Source of the DNA: a virus
Strand: one strand, 5' to 3'
DNA length: 31,144 nt
Virus record (IMG/VR): IMGVR_UViG_3300042691_027321
Coordinates: 1-31,144 of that record
Shown: piece after piece, positions 22,874-27,717 of the stretch
Layout of the letters: each line of letters opens with the position of its first letter
Position numbering within the stretch: the first letter of the stretch is position 1
The notes under the pieces: model-generated
What the model was told of the DNA's origin: nothing
What the model saw: the letters and a program-made list of their open reading frames with translations, nothing else
The model's database searches: none
Made by a program: the position numbers and the translations under genes

Positions 22874-23073
22874 GCCAGTCGGAGATCGAGGCCCTGACCG
22901 GCCGCGTCCGGCCGGCGGCGCAGATGCGCGCCCTCGAGCAGATGGGCATCCCGTTCCTGCGGCGCCCCCAAGGCGCGCGCGGGCGGTCGCCTGTCGTCCT
23001 GCGGTCGGCCGTCGAGGGACTGCTGCCCGCCCCTGCTACCATGGCCCCGGAGCCCCGTCTGAGGTTGCCCTGA
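22864..23073 (+). CDS. DUF4224 protein, likely recombination directionality/excision helper
   Basis: A 69-residue protein from GTG: MFLSQSEIEALTGRVRPAAQ, MRALEQMGIPFLRRPQGARG. This is the DUF4224 pattern, usually found directly before the integrase gene. The fold would be HTH-like, as in excisionases. Its stop overlaps the integrase ATG (TGATG), giving the coupled xis-int arrangement. Role as excisionase is inferred from place and fold. Confidence 0.72.
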   Translation: MFLSQSEIEALTGRVRPAAQMRALEQMGIPFLRRPQGARGRSPVVLRSAVEGLLPAPATMAPEPRLRLP

Positions 23074-24044
23074 TGCCGCCCCGCCAGCGAAAGACAGACC
23101 GCCACCTGCCCGCCTGCGTCTACCACAAGCACGGCGCCTACTGGTTCGTCCACGCTGGGCGCTGGACGCGGCTCGGGACCGACCTGCAGGCGGCGCTCGC
23201 CGAGTACGCGCGGCTGCGCGAGCGGCCGAAGGGCGGCATGGTGCAGCTCATCGACGACGCGCTGGCGCACATGCGGCCGAAGCTCGCGAAGTCGACGGCG
23301 CAGCAGTACGAGGTCGCGGCGAAGAAGCTGCGGCAGATCCTCGCGGAGTTCTCGCCCGAGCAGGTGAGGCCCAAGCACGTCGCGGCGATCAAGGTCGCGC
23401 TGCGCGACAAGCCGAACATGGCGAACCGCTGCCTGTCGGTGCTGCGGTCGGTGTTCGCGCTCGCGCTCGAGTGGCAGATCGTCGAGTCGAACCCGGTGGT
23501 CGGCATTCGCCGACACTCGGAACAGAAGCGGGACCGCTACATCACCGACGAGGAGTTCGTCGCCATCCGTGCCGCAGGCTCGCCGCGGTTCCAGTGCATG
23601 GTCGACCTGCTGTACCTGACCGGCCAGCGCGTGAGTGACGTCCTGGCAATCCGGCTCACCGACCTGACGCCCGAGGGCATCCGGTTCAAGCAGGGCAAGA
23701 CCGGCGCGAAGCTGCTCGTCGCGTGGACGCCCGAGCTGCGGGCGGTGGTGGAGCGGGCGAAGGGGCTGGGCGGCAACGTGCGCGCGATGACGCTGTTCTA
23801 CACCCGGCGCGGCGCGGTGCCGGCGTACTCGACGGTGCACGACCAGTGGCAGGAGGCCTGCCGAGTGGCCAGAGTCAGGGATGCGCACATCCACGACATG
23901 CGGGCGAAGAGCCTGACCGACGCGAAGCGCCAAGGCCTCGACGCGACGGCGCTCGCCGGTCATGCGTCGGCGGCCATGACGGAGCGCTACATCCGCGCGC
24001 GCGAGACGCCCGTGGTGATCGGCCCGGGCGGGCGAAGGGTCTGA
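23073..24044 (+). CDS. int: Tyrosine-family integrase
   Basis: A 323-residue site-specific recombinase. It has an N-terminal arm-binding-like start, a SAM-like core-binding domain (about 55-145, VQLIDDALAHMRPKLAKST) and the catalytic domain with R186 (TGQRVSDV), K209 (QGKTGAK), H274 and R277 (HIHDMRAKS), H297 (LAGHASAA) and the nucleophile Y306 (MTERYI). All expected catalytic residues are present, so it should be active. It would insert the phage into the host chromosome at the attP region that begins 4 bases downstream. The ATG is coupled to the DUF4224 stop. Confidence 0.95.
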   Translation: MPPRQRKTDRHLPACVYHKHGAYWFVHAGRWTRLGTDLQAALAEYARLRERPKGGMVQLIDDALAHMRPKLAKSTAQQYEVAAKKLRQILAEFSPEQVRPKHVAAIKVALRDKPNMANRCLSVLRSVFALALEWQIVESNPVVGIRRHSEQKRDRYITDEEFVAIRAAGSPRFQCMVDLLYLTGQRVSDVLAIRLTDLTPEGIRFKQGKTGAKLLVAWTPELRAVVERAKGLGGNVRAMTLFYTRRGAVPAYSTVHDQWQEACRVARVRDAHIHDMRAKSLTDAKRQGLDATALAGHASAAMTERYIRARETPVVIGPGGRRV

Positions 24045-24047
24045 GGT

Positions 24048-24267
24048 ATTAGACAGTCTAATAGACACGCATTGGACAGCGCATCTAAGTATTTGAATGG
24101 AAAGGATTTCAGAACATACCCCGGTAATGCAGCAGTACGCCCGAAACAGGGGGTTAAGCGTCGGGAATTCTTAGGAATTCCGGACACGGCTGTCTAATTC
24201 GTTGGGGTGAGATAGGCTCGCGTAACCTGCTGAAATCGCAGGGGCGCGAAGTGGCAATTAGACAGCG
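24048..24267. other. attP-like region with arm repeats and core candidate
   Basis: This AT-richer gap after int holds copies of ATTAGACAG(C): 24048-24056, a one-mismatch copy ATTGGACAGCG at 24071-24081, an inverted copy at 24189-24198, and ATTAGACAGCG at 24257-24267. The first copy is also half of a perfect palindrome ATTAGAC-A-GTCTAAT (24048-24062). Between the arms, GGAATT-CTTAGG-AATTCC (24164-24181) is an inverted repeat with a 6-base spacer that could be the crossover core. No open gene is credible here. The match to a host attB cannot be tested. Confidence 0.7.
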
Positions 24268-24282
24268 TTGGAGGACGTGACC

Positions 24283-24495
24283 ATGGGATTCGGAATCGAC
24301 TCAATCGGCGGCCTGCTGCTGGTCGCGCTGCTGCTGTGGCTGTACCTGCTGCCCTGGTGGGTCGCCAAGGGCCGCCGCCACCCGAGCGTCTACTCGATCG
24401 CGGTCGTGAACGTGTTCCTCGGCTGGACGTTCATCGGCTGGGTCGGCTGCCTCGCGTGGTCTCTTTCTGCAGCCGGCAGGCCGCAAGCTCCCTGA
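24283..24495 (+). CDS. Superinfection-immunity type membrane protein
   Basis: A 70-residue protein with two membrane helices: LLLVALLLWLYLLPWWVAKG and VVNVFLGWTFIGWVGCLAW, with HPSVYSIAVVNVFLGW between, the pattern of the T4 Imm-like superinfection immunity family. Such proteins block DNA entry of related phages from the inner membrane. GGAGG lies 8 bases before the ATG. It stands alone beside attP on the opposite strand to the lysis genes, the usual location of lysogenic conversion genes. Its end overlaps the Rz1-like gene by 65 bases on the opposite strand. Confidence 0.78.
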   Translation: MGFGIDSIGGLLLVALLLWLYLLPWWVAKGRRHPSVYSIAVVNVFLGWTFIGWVGCLAWSLSAAGRPQAP

Positions 24496-24721
24496 TTGCC
24501 CGCAGCTTGAGCGTGGACTCGTCCACGCATTCGGTGGCGTCGAGGTAGGCGCGCGCGAGGTCCCCGTTGGTGGCGAGCTCGCGCGCTGGCGGCGCGCAGG
24601 GTTCAGTCAGCGCGACCGGGATCGCCGGGCACTGCTCGATCACGACCAAGCGCGGCGCGCACGCTGTCAGGAAGAGGCTCGCGAGACCAGTCGCGAGCAG
24701 CGGGATCGTTCTGGAACGCAT
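24431..24721 (-). CDS. Outer-membrane spanin lipoprotein (Rz1-like)
   Basis: A 96-residue lipoprotein: MRSRTIPLLATGLASLFLTA with the lipobox LTAC (cysteine about residue 21), then Pro-containing VIEQCPAIPVALTEPCAPPA and a helical tail. As the o-spanin it would join the i-spanin in the periplasm and fuse the two membranes at the last step of lysis. It starts inside the i-spanin gene in another frame, as spanin pairs often do. The upstream part of the open frame (to 24775) lacks a signal start. The C-terminal half, with Cys and a helix, is longer than in lambda Rz1. Confidence 0.82.
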   Translation of the reverse strand: MRSRTIPLLATGLASLFLTACAPRLVVIEQCPAIPVALTEPCAPPARELATNGDLARAYLDATECVDESTLKLRAIRELAACRLQKETTRGSRPSR

Positions 24722-24983
24722 CGGAGAGGCCCTCGCGGCGGCGGTCGGCCCGGCGGCGGGCCTCGGTAAGGTCACGGTCTAGGGCGGCCATTACGGCCTG
24801 CTGGGCGGCCAGCGCCTCGGCAAACCGGGCACCCGCCTCGGCGGTCGCGGACTCCCAGCGGGCGCGCTCCTGGGCGACGCCGCGGTCGTGCGCCCAGTCG
24901 TAGGCGAGCCAGAGGCCGGCCGCGACGAGCAGCGCGCCGAGCGCGTAGCCGGCAAGGCGCAGGGTCAGCCAGGGCGGGATCAC
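24603..24983 (-). CDS. Inner-membrane spanin (Rz-like)
   Basis: A 126-residue protein from a GTG overlapping the previous stop. One N-terminal membrane helix (YALGALLVAAGLWLAYDWAH) is followed by a long charged periplasmic coiled coil (AQERARWESATAEAGARFAE, ALDRDLTEARRRADRRREG). This is the Rz pattern. The spanin works with the lipoprotein encoded in the overlapping frame. The 5' part of the open frame, up to 25169, is a shadow of the upstream gene. Confidence 0.83.
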   Translation of the reverse strand: MIPPWLTLRLAGYALGALLVAAGLWLAYDWAHDRGVAQERARWESATAEAGARFAEALAAQQAVMAALDRDLTEARRRADRRREGLSDAFQNDPAARDWSREPLPDSVRAALGRDRAVPGDPGRAD

Positions 24984-25336
24984 GGTCGCCTCCCGATCCA
25001 CTCCTTTGGGCGATCGTCCCCTTCCGGGTACTGGGTCGCGTAGAGCGTCAGCATCCGCAGGTTGCACATCGCGTGCGCGAGGTGCGGCAGGCCCGACTCC
25101 GGGTCGAGCTCCTCGCCGCGTTGCCACGCCGCGAGGTGGCGCATCGCGCAGGCGAACGGCACCGACCACGGCATGCCCTTCGCCCAGTTCCAGGCGGCGT
25201 ACTTCTTGCGCCCGTGCTCCCAGACCCGCGCCTCGTCCTCGAGCGTGCAGAGCGGGATGAGGTCGAAGGCGGGCTTGCCGTCGTTGAACCGCGCCCCGCT
25301 CCCCTTCTGGTCGCTGTTGACGTCACCGATGGACAT
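24980..25336 (-). CDS. dATP/dGTP diphosphohydrolase-like protein (DUF5664)
   Basis: A 118-residue protein with the DUF5664 / dATP-dGTP diphosphohydrolase N-terminal domain: GARFNDGKPAFDLIPLCTLE, EARVWEHGRKKYAAWNWAKG, ACAMRHLAAWQRGEELDPES and LPHLAHAMCNLRML. The His, Glu and Asp residues in RHLAAWQRGEELDPESG fit a metal-binding nucleotide hydrolase. GGAG lies 5 bases before the ATG. It lies between a metallophosphoesterase-membrane pair and the spanins, an odd place for a nucleotide enzyme. It may change the dNTP pool late in infection; activity is inferred from the family. Confidence 0.82.
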   Translation of the reverse strand: MSIGDVNSDQKGSGARFNDGKPAFDLIPLCTLEDEARVWEHGRKKYAAWNWAKGMPWSVPFACAMRHLAAWQRGEELDPESGLPHLAHAMCNLRMLTLYATQYPEGDDRPKEWIGRRP

Positions 25337-25550
25337 GCAGACTCCGGATCTGATTGAAGGCGCGCCGCAGCGCGTAGGAGCGCACCACGGAGATCACCGT
25401 GAAAATCACCCCCATGCCGAAGGCCTGCGCCCCCGTCACGTGGAACCCGAAGAGCGGCAGGATTGCCATGTTCGCGCACCAGTTGATGCCGAACCCCACC
25501 GCGACGTTGGCCCAGGACTCGATGAACGAGCCGAGTCGGGTCTGGCTCAT
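25323..25550 (-). CDS. DUF7220-like two-helix membrane protein
   Basis: A 75-residue membrane protein (MSQTRLGSFIESWANVAVGF) with two hydrophobic helices (VAVGFGINWCANMAILPLFG, GMGVIFTVISVVRSYALRRA) and a basic C-terminus. This is the DUF7220 pattern, found in phage lysis regions. It may be a holin-type or membrane-associated lysis helper. It overlaps the upstream metallophosphoesterase gene by 4 bases and the next gene by 14. Confidence 0.75.
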   Translation of the reverse strand: MSQTRLGSFIESWANVAVGFGINWCANMAILPLFGFHVTGAQAFGMGVIFTVISVVRSYALRRAFNQIRSLHVHR

Positions 25551-26659
25551 GCCGCCGCCCTCCGCCGCCGCAGCCACGTGAGGTAGTCGGCCGCGGCCTC
25601 GATGTCGTGCTCGACGCGCACGAGCCCGAGCTCGCCGGCTTGCGGGTCGAGGATGACGGTGCAGCTGGGCGCGATCATCGCGGGCGGCAGGCCGAGCGCG
25701 TCGGCGTAGGCGTCGTGGATCTTGTAGCTGCCGAGCTGCAAGAGGTGCGCGAGGTGCCCGGTCGCCGCGATGCGCAGCAGCTGGTACCCGCCCGTATGCT
25801 TGTGGCCTGACACGATGACGTGGTCGTGGTGCGTGAGCTTGGCCGCGCGCAGCTGGCCGTGCGACGGGTTCCACATCGAGTTCCCGGGCCAATCGTGGCG
25901 CGCCGCGATGCGCACCTCCGCGCCGTTCTGGAACGTGAGCGCGACGCGCACCGTGTGGTCGCCGGTGAGCGTGACGCCGGCCTGCCGCTGTATCCAGCGC
26001 AGCGGATCTCCCGCCCCGCTCCAGTGGTCGTGATTGCCCTGCACCATGAAGAGCCAATGCGGGCCGAGCTCCGTCACCAGCCACTCGACGAGCTGCCAGG
26101 ACTGGTCGGTCGTGGTCTCCTGCTCGCCGTAGAGCCGGGCGAGACGGCCGATCCAGTTGTTCTGCAAGTCGCCGATGCAGGCCGCGTACAGCCCCGGCGT
26201 GCGCTTGATGACCTCGATGTCCCGCTCGAGCTGGCCGAGGTCGGTGTGGTCGTCATCGACGTGCGGGTCGCCCAAGAGCGTGACCGCGATGGGCTCGTTC
26301 CCCTTCACCTTCACGCGGATGAGCTTGCGCGCCTCGGCCGCCGCGTCCTTCCGGGCGAAGGCGGCCTTGCGCCGGTCGATGAGCTCGCGGATGTCGATCT
26401 TGCCGCTCGGCAGTTTCGGCACCTCGAGGAGCTCGCGCTTCTTGGGCGCGTTCTCCACCACGCCCCCCACGGTGCGGAACCGGGCGCCCGGGTCATAGCT
26501 CGACTCGGGCACCGGCACGCCGCGGGACTTGAGCCCGTCGATGCGCTGGGAGACCGCGCGCGAGTTGATGCCGAGCTGGCGTGCAGCCTCGGCGCGAACC
26601 CCCTTTGCGGCATTGAGCGCCGCGAGGACCTGTTCATCCGTTACTTTTTGGGCGGGCAC
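25547..26659 (-). CDS. Calcineurin-like metallophosphoesterase with N-terminal HTH
   Basis: A 370-residue protein. Residues 1-48 hold an HTH (VTDEQVLAALNAAKGVRAEA, ARQLGINSRAVSQRIDGLK). Residues 126-290 form a two-metal phosphoesterase with all hallmarks: LLGDPHVDDDH (D131, H133), IGDLQNN (D164), QGNHDHW (N209, H210), ARHDW (H255) and GHKHTG (H286, H288). It could act on nucleic acid, nucleotides or phosphoproteins. A GTG at 26659 with AGGAGG 4-5 bases upstream is the start. The HTH fusion suggests DNA targeting. Found within the lysis module, downstream of an HExxH protein. Confidence 0.85.
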   Translation of the reverse strand: MPAQKVTDEQVLAALNAAKGVRAEAARQLGINSRAVSQRIDGLKSRGVPVPESSYDPGARFRTVGGVVENAPKKRELLEVPKLPSGKIDIRELIDRRKAAFARKDAAAEARKLIRVKVKGNEPIAVTLLGDPHVDDDHTDLGQLERDIEVIKRTPGLYAACIGDLQNNWIGRLARLYGEQETTTDQSWQLVEWLVTELGPHWLFMVQGNHDHWSGAGDPLRWIQRQAGVTLTGDHTVRVALTFQNGAEVRIAARHDWPGNSMWNPSHGQLRAAKLTHHDHVIVSGHKHTGGYQLLRIAATGHLAHLLQLGSYKIHDAYADALGLPPAMIAPSCTVILDPQAGELGLVRVEHDIEAAADYLTWLRRRRAAA

Positions 26660-26978
26660 GGGGCCTCCTGTGTGAGAACGAAGCAAGCGCCTGCTGCAAC
26701 AGGCTTCCGAAGTTGTCGACGAACACCTCGTCGCTGTAGAGCCGGTGCTCCATCGCGCCGAGCACCGCGTGCACGAACTCGTGGCAGAAGGTCTGCTGGA
26801 TGGCGGTGTCGGGCTGGTCGCTGCGCACGTCGATGCGATGGAGCTTCGGGTCGTACAGGCCGAGCGCGTTCTTCGCGTGCGGCCAGCGCGAGAGCGAGAG
26901 GATGCGGACGGTGACGACGTGGCCGTGCAGCTGGAACGCCTTGGGGATGCCGAGGCGCTGGTGGCGGCAGGCGGCCAC
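26634..26978 (-). CDS. Putative HExxH zinc metalloprotein
   Basis: A 114-residue protein from a GTG two bases after the holin stop. The motif QTFCHEFVHAVLGAMEHRL has HExxH (H66, E67, H70) with a downstream Glu, the metallopeptidase signature. The first 60 residues look beta-rich and lack a signal peptide, so it would be intracellular. A Glu/Asp-rich partner is not seen. The start is uncertain since no ribosome site precedes it. Its small size resembles SprT/ImmA-like minimal peptidases; substrate unknown. It overlaps the metallophosphoesterase gene by 26 bases. Confidence 0.7.
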   Translation of the reverse strand: MAACRHQRLGIPKAFQLHGHVVTVRILSLSRWPHAKNALGLYDPKLHRIDVRSDQPDTAIQQTFCHEFVHAVLGAMEHRLYSDEVFVDNFGSLLQQALASFSHRRPRARPKSNG

Positions 26979-26980
26979 GG

Positions 26981-27208
26981 TCAGCGGTGCGGCAGCGCGG
27001 TGGTGGTTTTCGTGCGCAGATAAAGGTTCACGAGCGCCCCGATGAGCATGATGGCCGCGGCGACCTTCTGCCCGAACAGGGTCGTGAGATGCGCGCCGGC
27101 GAGCTCGATGCCCGCGATGATGAAGATCGCGGTGTTGGCCCACATCGTTTTCGAGCGCAGGGAGCCGCGCAGCCAGTCGGCCGTGCTGATGGTGGTCTCG
27201 TCGGTCAT
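26981..27208 (-). CDS. Holin
   Basis: A 75-residue membrane protein (MTDETTISTADWLRGSLRSK). It has two membrane helices: WANTAIFIIAGIELAGAHL and AAAIMLIGALVNLYLR, with polar ends and a TKTTT tail as in phage holins near endolysin. It would make membrane pores that let the amidase reach the cell wall and trigger lysis. It overlaps the amidase stop by 4 bases (ATGA). Confidence 0.8.
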   Translation of the reverse strand: MTDETTISTADWLRGSLRSKTMWANTAIFIIAGIELAGAHLTTLFGQKVAAAIMLIGALVNLYLRTKTTTALPHR

Positions 27209-27717
27209 ACATGCCTCCGCAGGGTGTTGGCGATGGCGGCGCAGCAGGCCGCCCGGTGGGTGCGGATCTGCTCCGCGTGGTAAATGAACTCGGGCTCGAG
27301 GACCAGCGCCGCGCAGCGGGTCTGCGCGAGGAAGGCGAGCGGCCCCTTCGCGGGGTTCGCCTGGAACCAGCCGGGCTTGATGCCGCGGCTCGGCAGGAAG
27401 AACCGAGCGAGCACCGCCTGCACGTCGGCCGCGAGCACCGCGCCGCGCACCGAGCCCGGGGCGTGCAGGGTCTCGGAGCCGCGCGCGGTCGGCGTCGCCG
27501 CGTTGAAGTGGATCTCGACGGCAAGGTCGACGGGCTGGGCGCGCGCGTTGATCCAGCGGACCTTCGCGCCGAGCTCGAGCGCCGGCACGAGCTGGGCGCC
27601 CGGCAGGTGGCGGGAGATTTCCGCCACCCAGAGCCGCGCCTCGGCGTGCTCGACCAACCCCTTCCACGCCGCACCGGGCGCCGCCGGGTGGTGCCCGGCG
27701 GAGAGGAACAGGCTCAC
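27205..27717 (-). CDS. Endolysin: N-acetylmuramoyl-L-alanine amidase
   Basis: A 170-residue amidase cutting the bond between muramic acid and the peptide in peptidoglycan. It has the Amidase_3 motif LFLSAGHHP (metal histidine at about 9-10), a metal-ligand glutamate region (LVEHAEARLW), the conserved VDLAVEIHFNA (H70) and the catalytic glutamate in VLEPEFIYH. It lacks a signal peptide and a cell-wall domain, so it would depend on the holin. The GTG start overlaps the previous stop (GTGA); the frame runs further upstream as a shadow. Confidence 0.9.
   Translation of the reverse strand: MSLFLSAGHHPAAPGAAWKGLVEHAEARLWVAEISRHLPGAQLVPALELGAKVRWINARAQPVDLAVEIHFNAATPTARGSETLHAPGSVRGAVLAADVQAVLARFFLPSRGIKPGWFQANPAKGPLAFLAQTRCAALVLEPEFIYHAEQIRTHRAACCAAIANTLRRHV

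Follow-up and report, generated by a model that had tools for sequence, protein, structure and literature searches.

A probable accessory block in the lysis region of a phage combines two separately inherited modules of putative DNA- and nucleotide-handling enzymes

The window analysed here is a virus contig of 31,144 nucleotides (nt; IMG/VR record IMGVR_UViG_3300042691_027321, positions 1 to 31,144), and our subject is a block of four genes lodged among its lysis genes. Families were called by Pfam and PHROG profile searches of the window proteins. Read along the minus strand, the region opens with an N-acetylmuramoyl-L-alanine amidase (endolysin) gene (27205-27717; PF01520, E 9.6e-7; phrog_435, E 4.8e-21) and a small holin-like gene (26981-27208). 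There follow genes for a predicted metallopeptidase of zincin fold with an HExxH motif (114 amino acids (aa); 26634-26978, GTG start; phrog_1233, E 4.3e-10), a fusion of a helix-turn-helix (HTH) to a calcineurin-like metallophosphoesterase (MPE; 370 aa; 25547-26659, GTG start; phrog_7339 and HTH_8), a small hydrophobic, probably membrane-located DUF7220 protein (75 aa; 25323-25550; PF23858, E 3.4e-29) and a DUF5664/dGTP_diPhyd_N protein predicted to be a deoxynucleoside triphosphate (dNTP) pyrophosphohydrolase (118 aa; 24980-25336; PF18909, E 1e-30). An Rz-like inner-membrane spanin (24603-24983; phrog_89, E 2.5e-6) and an Rz1-like lipoprotein spanin (24431-24721; PF23793 LysC, E 5.7e-9) complete the minus-strand series. 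An integrase-like open reading frame (ORF), named by eye, occupies 23073-24044 on the plus strand, and because it lies beside the block the phage is taken to be temperate.

A first-pass annotation made from the sequence had placed the four families between holin and spanins with overlaps of 4-26 bases, and both statements hold: two nt separate the holin-like gene from the HExxH gene, after which the coordinates give overlaps of 26 nt (HExxH/MPE), 4 nt (MPE/DUF7220), 14 nt (DUF7220/DUF5664) and 4 nt (DUF5664/Rz). The name 'holin' is positional; it rests on the adjoining amidase gene and on a hydrophobic stretch at residues 27-62 of the product, which matched no lysis family in Pfam or PHROGs. 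NCBIfam matches of the block proteins all stayed under cut-off, and sequence searches of solved structures with the DUF5664, MPE and HExxH proteins, and with DUF3310 proteins from sister phages, returned nothing better than E 0.58.

Relatives were gathered by scanning viral contigs: the MPE gave 35 loci, the HExxH protein 18, DUF7220 33 and DUF5664 141, of which the best 80 were kept. As each gene has relatives in many other contigs, the arrangement is taken to reflect more than chance. Of all loci fetched, just the window and a contig matching it at 99.97% identity over 3 kb have the four genes in exactly this order, and the two represent one virus. Of the earlier proposal of one coupled unit, the coupling stands and the single four-gene unit does not: the genes fall into a module A (HExxH plus a nuclease-like enzyme) and a module B (DUF7220 plus DUF5664), which travel apart, neither always together nor scattering independently, yet meet in L056, L138-L142, L158, L081 and the named phage BB8. 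The reading we tentatively prefer, at slightly less than an even chance, is that of a temperate-phage accessory block whose two modules would have been inherited separately and set between the endolysin/holin and spanin genes, with module A serving late DNA processing and module B purine-dNTP hydrolysis.

The composition of module A emerged from the genes that follow HExxH. We retained loci with a profile E ≤ 1e-10, a match of more than 200 nt and at least 1 kb downstream, dropping three shorter ones; the resulting 102 loci derive from the MPE (20), HExxH (13), DUF5664 (15), DUF7220 (1) and DUF3310 (51) scans, plus the window and BB8. In 102 of 102, the gene right after HExxH specifies a phosphoester-cleaving enzyme: a phrog_221-type MPE (47 loci), a window-type MPE (29), a PD-(D/E)XK nuclease (14) or, more rarely, a 256-aa MPE (9), a 5'-3' exonuclease (2) or a phrog_284-type MPE (1). 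The PD-(D/E)XK label was set by default; phmmer then located the nuclease in all 14 loci, and its adjacency to HExxH was read directly in five; the 256-aa label was set by motif and read directly in four of L220, L235, L241, L252 and L257. On a tree of 45 of the 47 distinct HExxH rows (the two exonuclease rows were left out), at least ten partner changes are needed, and the starred branches alone force six changes for the phrog_221 label and five for the window type, the bootstrap values being not fully settled. L007 and L040 share an identical HExxH stretch, yet their MPE types differ. A further scan with the HExxH alignment returned 80 loci, six of them too short and the contigs overlapping the earlier sets; an MPE of one of three types came next in 74 of 74, representing 32 distinct HExxH proteins.

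Since relatives keep the pairing of HExxH with a cutter while swapping the type of cutter, these data point to a functional partnership. We found no description of a fixed protease pairing with exchangeable nucleases in the literature searched, and in that sense the protease-nuclease pairing is new. As to the annotation's remark that it knew no such system, DUF5664 and a nuclease cluster of cluster K mycobacteriophages are by now described in PMC12884076 and PMC10700055, respectively. A nuclease-type partner that lasts through repeated changes provides a testable function for the uncharacterised phage family phrog_1233.

Several observations weigh against this partnership. The 102 loci include many near-copies and repeat contigs, their 47 distinct HExxH rows belong for the most part to a single broad group of phages, and 20 of the loci were selected for carrying an MPE. 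Distant HExxH homologues were compared in nine records of named phages: BB8 has a nuclease directly downstream (PF02739, E 7.8e-12), cr3_1 (E 0.038) and MT839267 (E 0.099) have a weakly PD-(D/E)XK-like gene there, below the Pfam cut-off, and in the other six the downstream gene is no nuclease. In L158, an HExxH-like protein recognised by motif only precedes a 90-aa gene that is neither nuclease nor MPE. Conversely, 15 of the 35 loci of the MPE scan have an MPE without HExxH, and in seven of these a Cys-rich ECCDC protein stands upstream instead. A universal rule placing a nuclease after every phage HExxH gene was rejected on the evidence of the six distant homologues and L158.

Such variability would suit a different account, in which the block is a lysis-adjacent set of morons, unlinked accessory genes each useful alone, occupying a permissive site between the lysis genes and the integrase. 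We regard this as possible but distinctly less probable than the two-module reading. It would explain the varied neighbours of the distant HExxH homologues, the restriction of the four-gene string to one virus among the fetched loci and the changing content of one slot among sister phages (see below), but it does not predict that the nuclease-like partner of HExxH persists through at least ten partner changes, nor that the DUF7220-DUF5664 pairing recurs elsewhere, including in replication-type surroundings.

Two other arrangements were seen around module A. A small Cys-rich CCDCxLxH protein replaces HExxH upstream of the MPE in L016, L020, L021, L026-L029, L056, L139, L140 and L263. In L053 (409-2640), HExxH, a 5'-3' exonuclease, an HNH-like gene identified by eye and an MPE-like gene are consecutive.

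With respect to the MPE itself, profile searches matched it to phrog_7339 ('DNA repair exonuclease'; E 5e-39) and to a Fis-type HTH_8 (E 1.9e-5). The complete two-metal phosphoesterase site claimed for it by the first-pass annotation was borne out: D131, H133, D164, N209, H255, H286 and H288 are invariant in all 11 aligned sequences (the window protein and ten others at 39-93% identity), in line with the seven-ligand motif of these enzymes (DxH, GD, GNHD, H and GHxH). The Pfam Metallophos score of 12.3 bits lies under the gathering threshold of 21.5, and ligands and fold both place the protein among the calcineurin-like enzymes. A structural model (pLDDT 69) matched the PolD subunit DP1 (Z 13.2), Mre11 and a polymerase delta regulatory subunit (both 12.6) and Vps29 and LpxH (11.4), and Foldseek (best E 4.5e-6) put LpxH first and Mre11 second. 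The near-equal scores of the non-nucleases Vps29 and LpxH, the first rank of LpxH in Foldseek and the pLDDT of 69 all count against a specific nuclease assignment, and the model supports a metallophosphoesterase fold leaning toward DNA-acting relatives, no more. The protein shares fold and metal ligands with Mre11/SbcD and PolD DP1, but it carries an extra N-terminal HTH and is almost as similar to LpxH and Vps29. As for a Rad50/SbcC partner, no match to the proxy family AAA_23 was found in the window record, which is possibly a fragment. In two Pseudomonas phages (L001 and L002, 4998-6011 in each), the gene of a window-type MPE, some kilobases ahead of lysis genes, overlaps a gene that is annotated in one of the two records as antitermination protein Q.

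The HExxH protein yielded a comparable picture. H66, E67, H70 and E84 are invariant across six aligned sequences, and the AlphaFold2 model (pLDDT 88.6) had IrrE/PprI, SPRTN, Wss1, CapP and ArdC as its first structural matches (Z 7.2 to 6.0). With all of these, it shares the zincin fold, the HExxH motif and an invariant downstream Glu; it differs in being a bare catalytic domain of 114 aa, in reaching at most Z 7.2 and in sequence scores below the Pfam cut-offs. Comparison with IrrE/ImmA recovered HExxH and the downstream Glu, the best Z of 7.2 leaving PprI and SPRTN tied within 1. Three points caution against a closer placement: every structural match has Z < 8, other, unrelated zincins follow closely at 5.9, and the SprT-like Pfam profile scored 14.6 bits against a cut-off of 25.6. 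Filing the protein under SprT/SPRTN was rejected on this last ground, and Foldseek gave no match at E < 0.1. The model supports a zincin fold that leans toward DNA-acting relatives, and nothing beyond that. An SprT-like mycobacteriophage protein resembling human SPRTN, MPC00488, has already been published (PMC12363180).

Because the first structural matches of module A are DNA-damage proteases and DNA nucleases, a role in DNA suggests itself, and the annotation's idea of DNA processing gains support from the predicted nuclease-like partners of HExxH. In the two-module reading, the HTH would guide the phosphoesterase onto DNA, where the MPE domain would cleave phosphodiesters, and an IrrE/SPRTN/Wss1-type peptidase would cleave or remove protein on the same DNA, all late in infection. 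A stronger proposal, which we consider rather unlikely on present evidence, is that HExxH and the downstream nuclease form a two-part phage machine that deals with DNA blocked by protein, much as SPRTN/Wss1 together with Mre11 would in a viral version. A DNA-sensing protease would strip off protein that is bound covalently or tightly, and one or another of several interchangeable nucleases would then cut the bared DNA; the nuclease would be replaceable because just the pairing of activities matters. If true, this would amount to a dedicated phage tool against protein-DNA crosslinks or other nucleoprotein.

Module B is anchored by two strong profile matches, DUF7220 scoring 101.5 bits against a Pfam cut-off of 28 and DUF5664 scoring 106 against 27. 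After clustering at 85% identity, 8 of 17 DUF7220 clusters had DUF5664 no more than 1 kb away on the same strand, plus L158, where the call rests on Pfam only; in the other direction, DUF7220 was near DUF5664 in 16 of 25 DUF5664 clusters, in either gene order. Among 50,697 named-phage records, DUF5664 was matched in 1,162 and DUF7220 in 76, and three of eight fetched DUF7220 records had DUF5664 within 4 kb.

The boundaries of the module could be read from two comparisons. The sister contig L008 aligns with the window at 87.4% over 27300-25547 and at 92.0% over 24989-24300, and the DUF7220-DUF5664 piece between is missing. The reverse applies to L056, which aligned with window positions 24300-27300 solely at 25549-24998 (85.5%), with no match for the flanks. 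As the L008 edges fall within about 10 nt of gene ends and L056 shares just that piece, the sequences indicate that the DUF7220-DUF5664 pair is exchanged as one unit. The exchanged minus-strand segment, 24990-25546, is absent from L008 and L004, which have a DUF3310 gene there.

A DUF3310 gene fills this slot after the MPE in L004, L005, L008 and L017-L020. Three such proteins that were tested measure 71-73 aa (PF11753; E 2.6e-17, 9.7e-15 and 7.3e-15), and the same domain makes up residues 122-184 of T7 gp1.7, annotated as a nucleotide kinase (E 4.5e-23), a link likewise made in the accessible part of PMC10700055. Given that sister phages carry this T7 gp1.7 domain where the window has DUF7220-DUF5664, this slot looks like a place for genes that handle nucleotides. 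Weighing against this, the slot proteins are without most of gp1.7 (196 aa), so that the shared domain does not imply kinase activity. DUF5664 and DUF3310 as distant homologues were considered and rejected (hhalign probability 1%). Another small Cys-rich protein occupies the post-MPE slot in L010 (7083-7265), L014 (7083-7283) and L263 (1820-2032), the L010 copy having no Pfam match.

Where the two modules meet, their order is not constant. L056 and L139/L140 have the string MPE-DUF7220-DUF5664 with MPEs of other types, and same-strand variants comprise DUF7220-DUF5664-MPE (L138, L141, L158), DUF7220-MPE (L142) and DUF5664-MPE (L081); L158 holds all four families in one short block, ordered differently from the window. 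The DUF5664 and DUF7220 scans also contain 27 loci with an MPE on the opposite strand, and L107 has one 3 kb away; these were not counted as linkage.

As to the activity of module B, the most direct guide is the DUF5664 protein of Arthrobacter phage Wayne (ALY10775.1), reported in the available text of PMC12884076 to convert dATP, dUTP and dGTP to monophosphates with a kcat of 0.48 per second for dATP. This enzyme, which is among our own matches (H36), has the same Pfam domain, is not fused to DUF550 and is 43% identical to the window protein over 107 positions; the residues in common include KY, NW, RH and GE.LDPE.G..H. It differs in its length of 198 aa, in an extra N-terminal part and in its setting, a Z-DNA phage in which a PurA-like adenylosuccinate synthetase is its neighbour. 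In the window, we detected no PF00709 match indicative of a PurZ-type adenylosuccinate synthetase (14 of 14 controls matched) and no family A polymerase, in a record that may be a fragment. The 43% identity to an enzyme with a published assay makes the window DUF5664 likely, by homology, to be a dNTP hydrolase, and the nucleotide-pool control suggested by the first-pass annotation is to that extent supported for this member of the block. In the two-module reading, DUF5664 would turn dATP, dGTP and dUTP into dNMP and pyrophosphate, lowering the purine dNTP pool, and its companion in the module would be the small membrane protein DUF7220. The pairing ties DUF7220, an unstudied small family on which we found no paper in the literature searched, to a measured dNTP hydrolase.

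DUF7220 has one hydrophobic peak above threshold (residues 38-61). Another account is lysis control: DUF7220 might be a second holin or antiholin, with the enzymes aiding lysis, for example by making released DNA less viscous. The position of the genes within the lysis genes agrees with this, as do the MPE neighbours. From 218 ORFs neighbouring 27 MPE loci, 20 in 16 loci were hand-picked, on the strength of their length and sequence, as probable lysis genes; a lysis-type match (E < 1e-3) was obtained in 10 of these 16 loci, nine in the PHROG class lysis and the tenth, L027, in a family that is named for endolysins but falls in the class head and packaging. Matches were weak in L265 and L010, and there were none in L261, L262, L266 and L026. 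In published systems, a cytotoxic transmembrane protein and an MRE11 nuclease follow the holin in cluster K mycobacteriophages (available parts of PMC10700055 and PMC11797047), and DUF3310 is listed in one type of lytic cassette of enterococcal phages (PMC10630273, in the portion at hand). Against these stand the failure of DUF7220 to match any lysis family in Pfam or PHROGs and its position, with DUF5664, next to replication genes in other phages, and we judge lysis control to be unlikely.

Those replication-type surroundings are clearest in L087 and L131, where a polymerase-like gene (by eye) is followed by HExxH, PD-(D/E)XK, other genes, DUF5664, DUF7220 and an SNF2-type helicase (families tested for L087); L091, L101 and L112 have an L087-like layout with no DUF7220 match. 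In BB8, HExxH, a 5'-3' exonuclease, DUF5664 and DUF7220 come after an annotated DNA polymerase. The BB8 block resembles that of the window in having HExxH, a nuclease, DUF5664 and DUF7220 consecutively; it differs in its 5'-3' exonuclease as the nuclease, in its place behind a DNA polymerase and in DUF5664 preceding DUF7220. The surroundings in L087, L131 and BB8 place these families in DNA and nucleotide metabolism, with the lysis region as one of their locations. That region emerges as a site that trades DNA and nucleotide enzymes in and out as whole modules. Two further DUF7220 settings were recorded. In AcaML1 (L175:2718-4237) and Vibrio phage 1.021.A (L174:2896-4210), a gene annotated as a DNA methylase shares 4 to 14 nt with that of DUF7220, a family that is thus coupled to DNA-enzyme genes of various types. 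In Pseudomonas phage UAntarctica (L172:4001-8078), two DUF7220 copies lie ~3.7 kb apart amid small genes.

The adjacency of DUF5664 and DUF7220 to replication genes also argues against an anti-phage or anti-defence block, in which dNTP depletion would hit competitors or the protease would attack host defence proteins. The fold matches of HExxH include CapP and ArdC, which act in defence and anti-restriction. A lactococcal phage DUF3310 protein, SaV, is described as toxic and tied to AbiV sensitivity in the available part of PMC8306868. On the other hand, none of the block's four proteins had a PADLOC match at E ≤ 0.1, and ten related proteins had no match or E ≥ 0.009. The defence against other phages envisaged by the first-pass annotation accordingly finds little support, and we rate such a role as improbable, marginally more so than lysis control.

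A published parallel in position comes from the cluster K mycobacteriophages, for which a nuclease-containing gene cluster between holin and integrase is described (PMC10700055, in the part available). In Hammy, Waterfoul and Amelie, an MRE11-type MPE comes after lysin and holin and is cytotoxic when overexpressed, according to the accessible sections of PMC10700055 and PMC11797047. The likeness to the window consists of an MRE11-annotated MPE a few genes past lysin and holin on the Hammy gene map. Membership of the window MPE in the Hammy gp34 family was rejected (best BLASTP E 0.19; PHROG 284 versus 7339), and Hammy gp32, gp33 and gp35 showed no match to HExxH, DUF7220 or DUF5664.

Finally, the interval between the integrase and Rz1 genes contains repeated words at 24048-24266: ATTAGACAG / CTGTCTAAT at 24048, 24190 and 24257, and ATTGGACAG at 24071. 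An 11-nt perfect inverted repeat (24189-24199 / 24256-24266) lies in the same interval. Words and repeat may possibly represent integrase arm sites or an operator.

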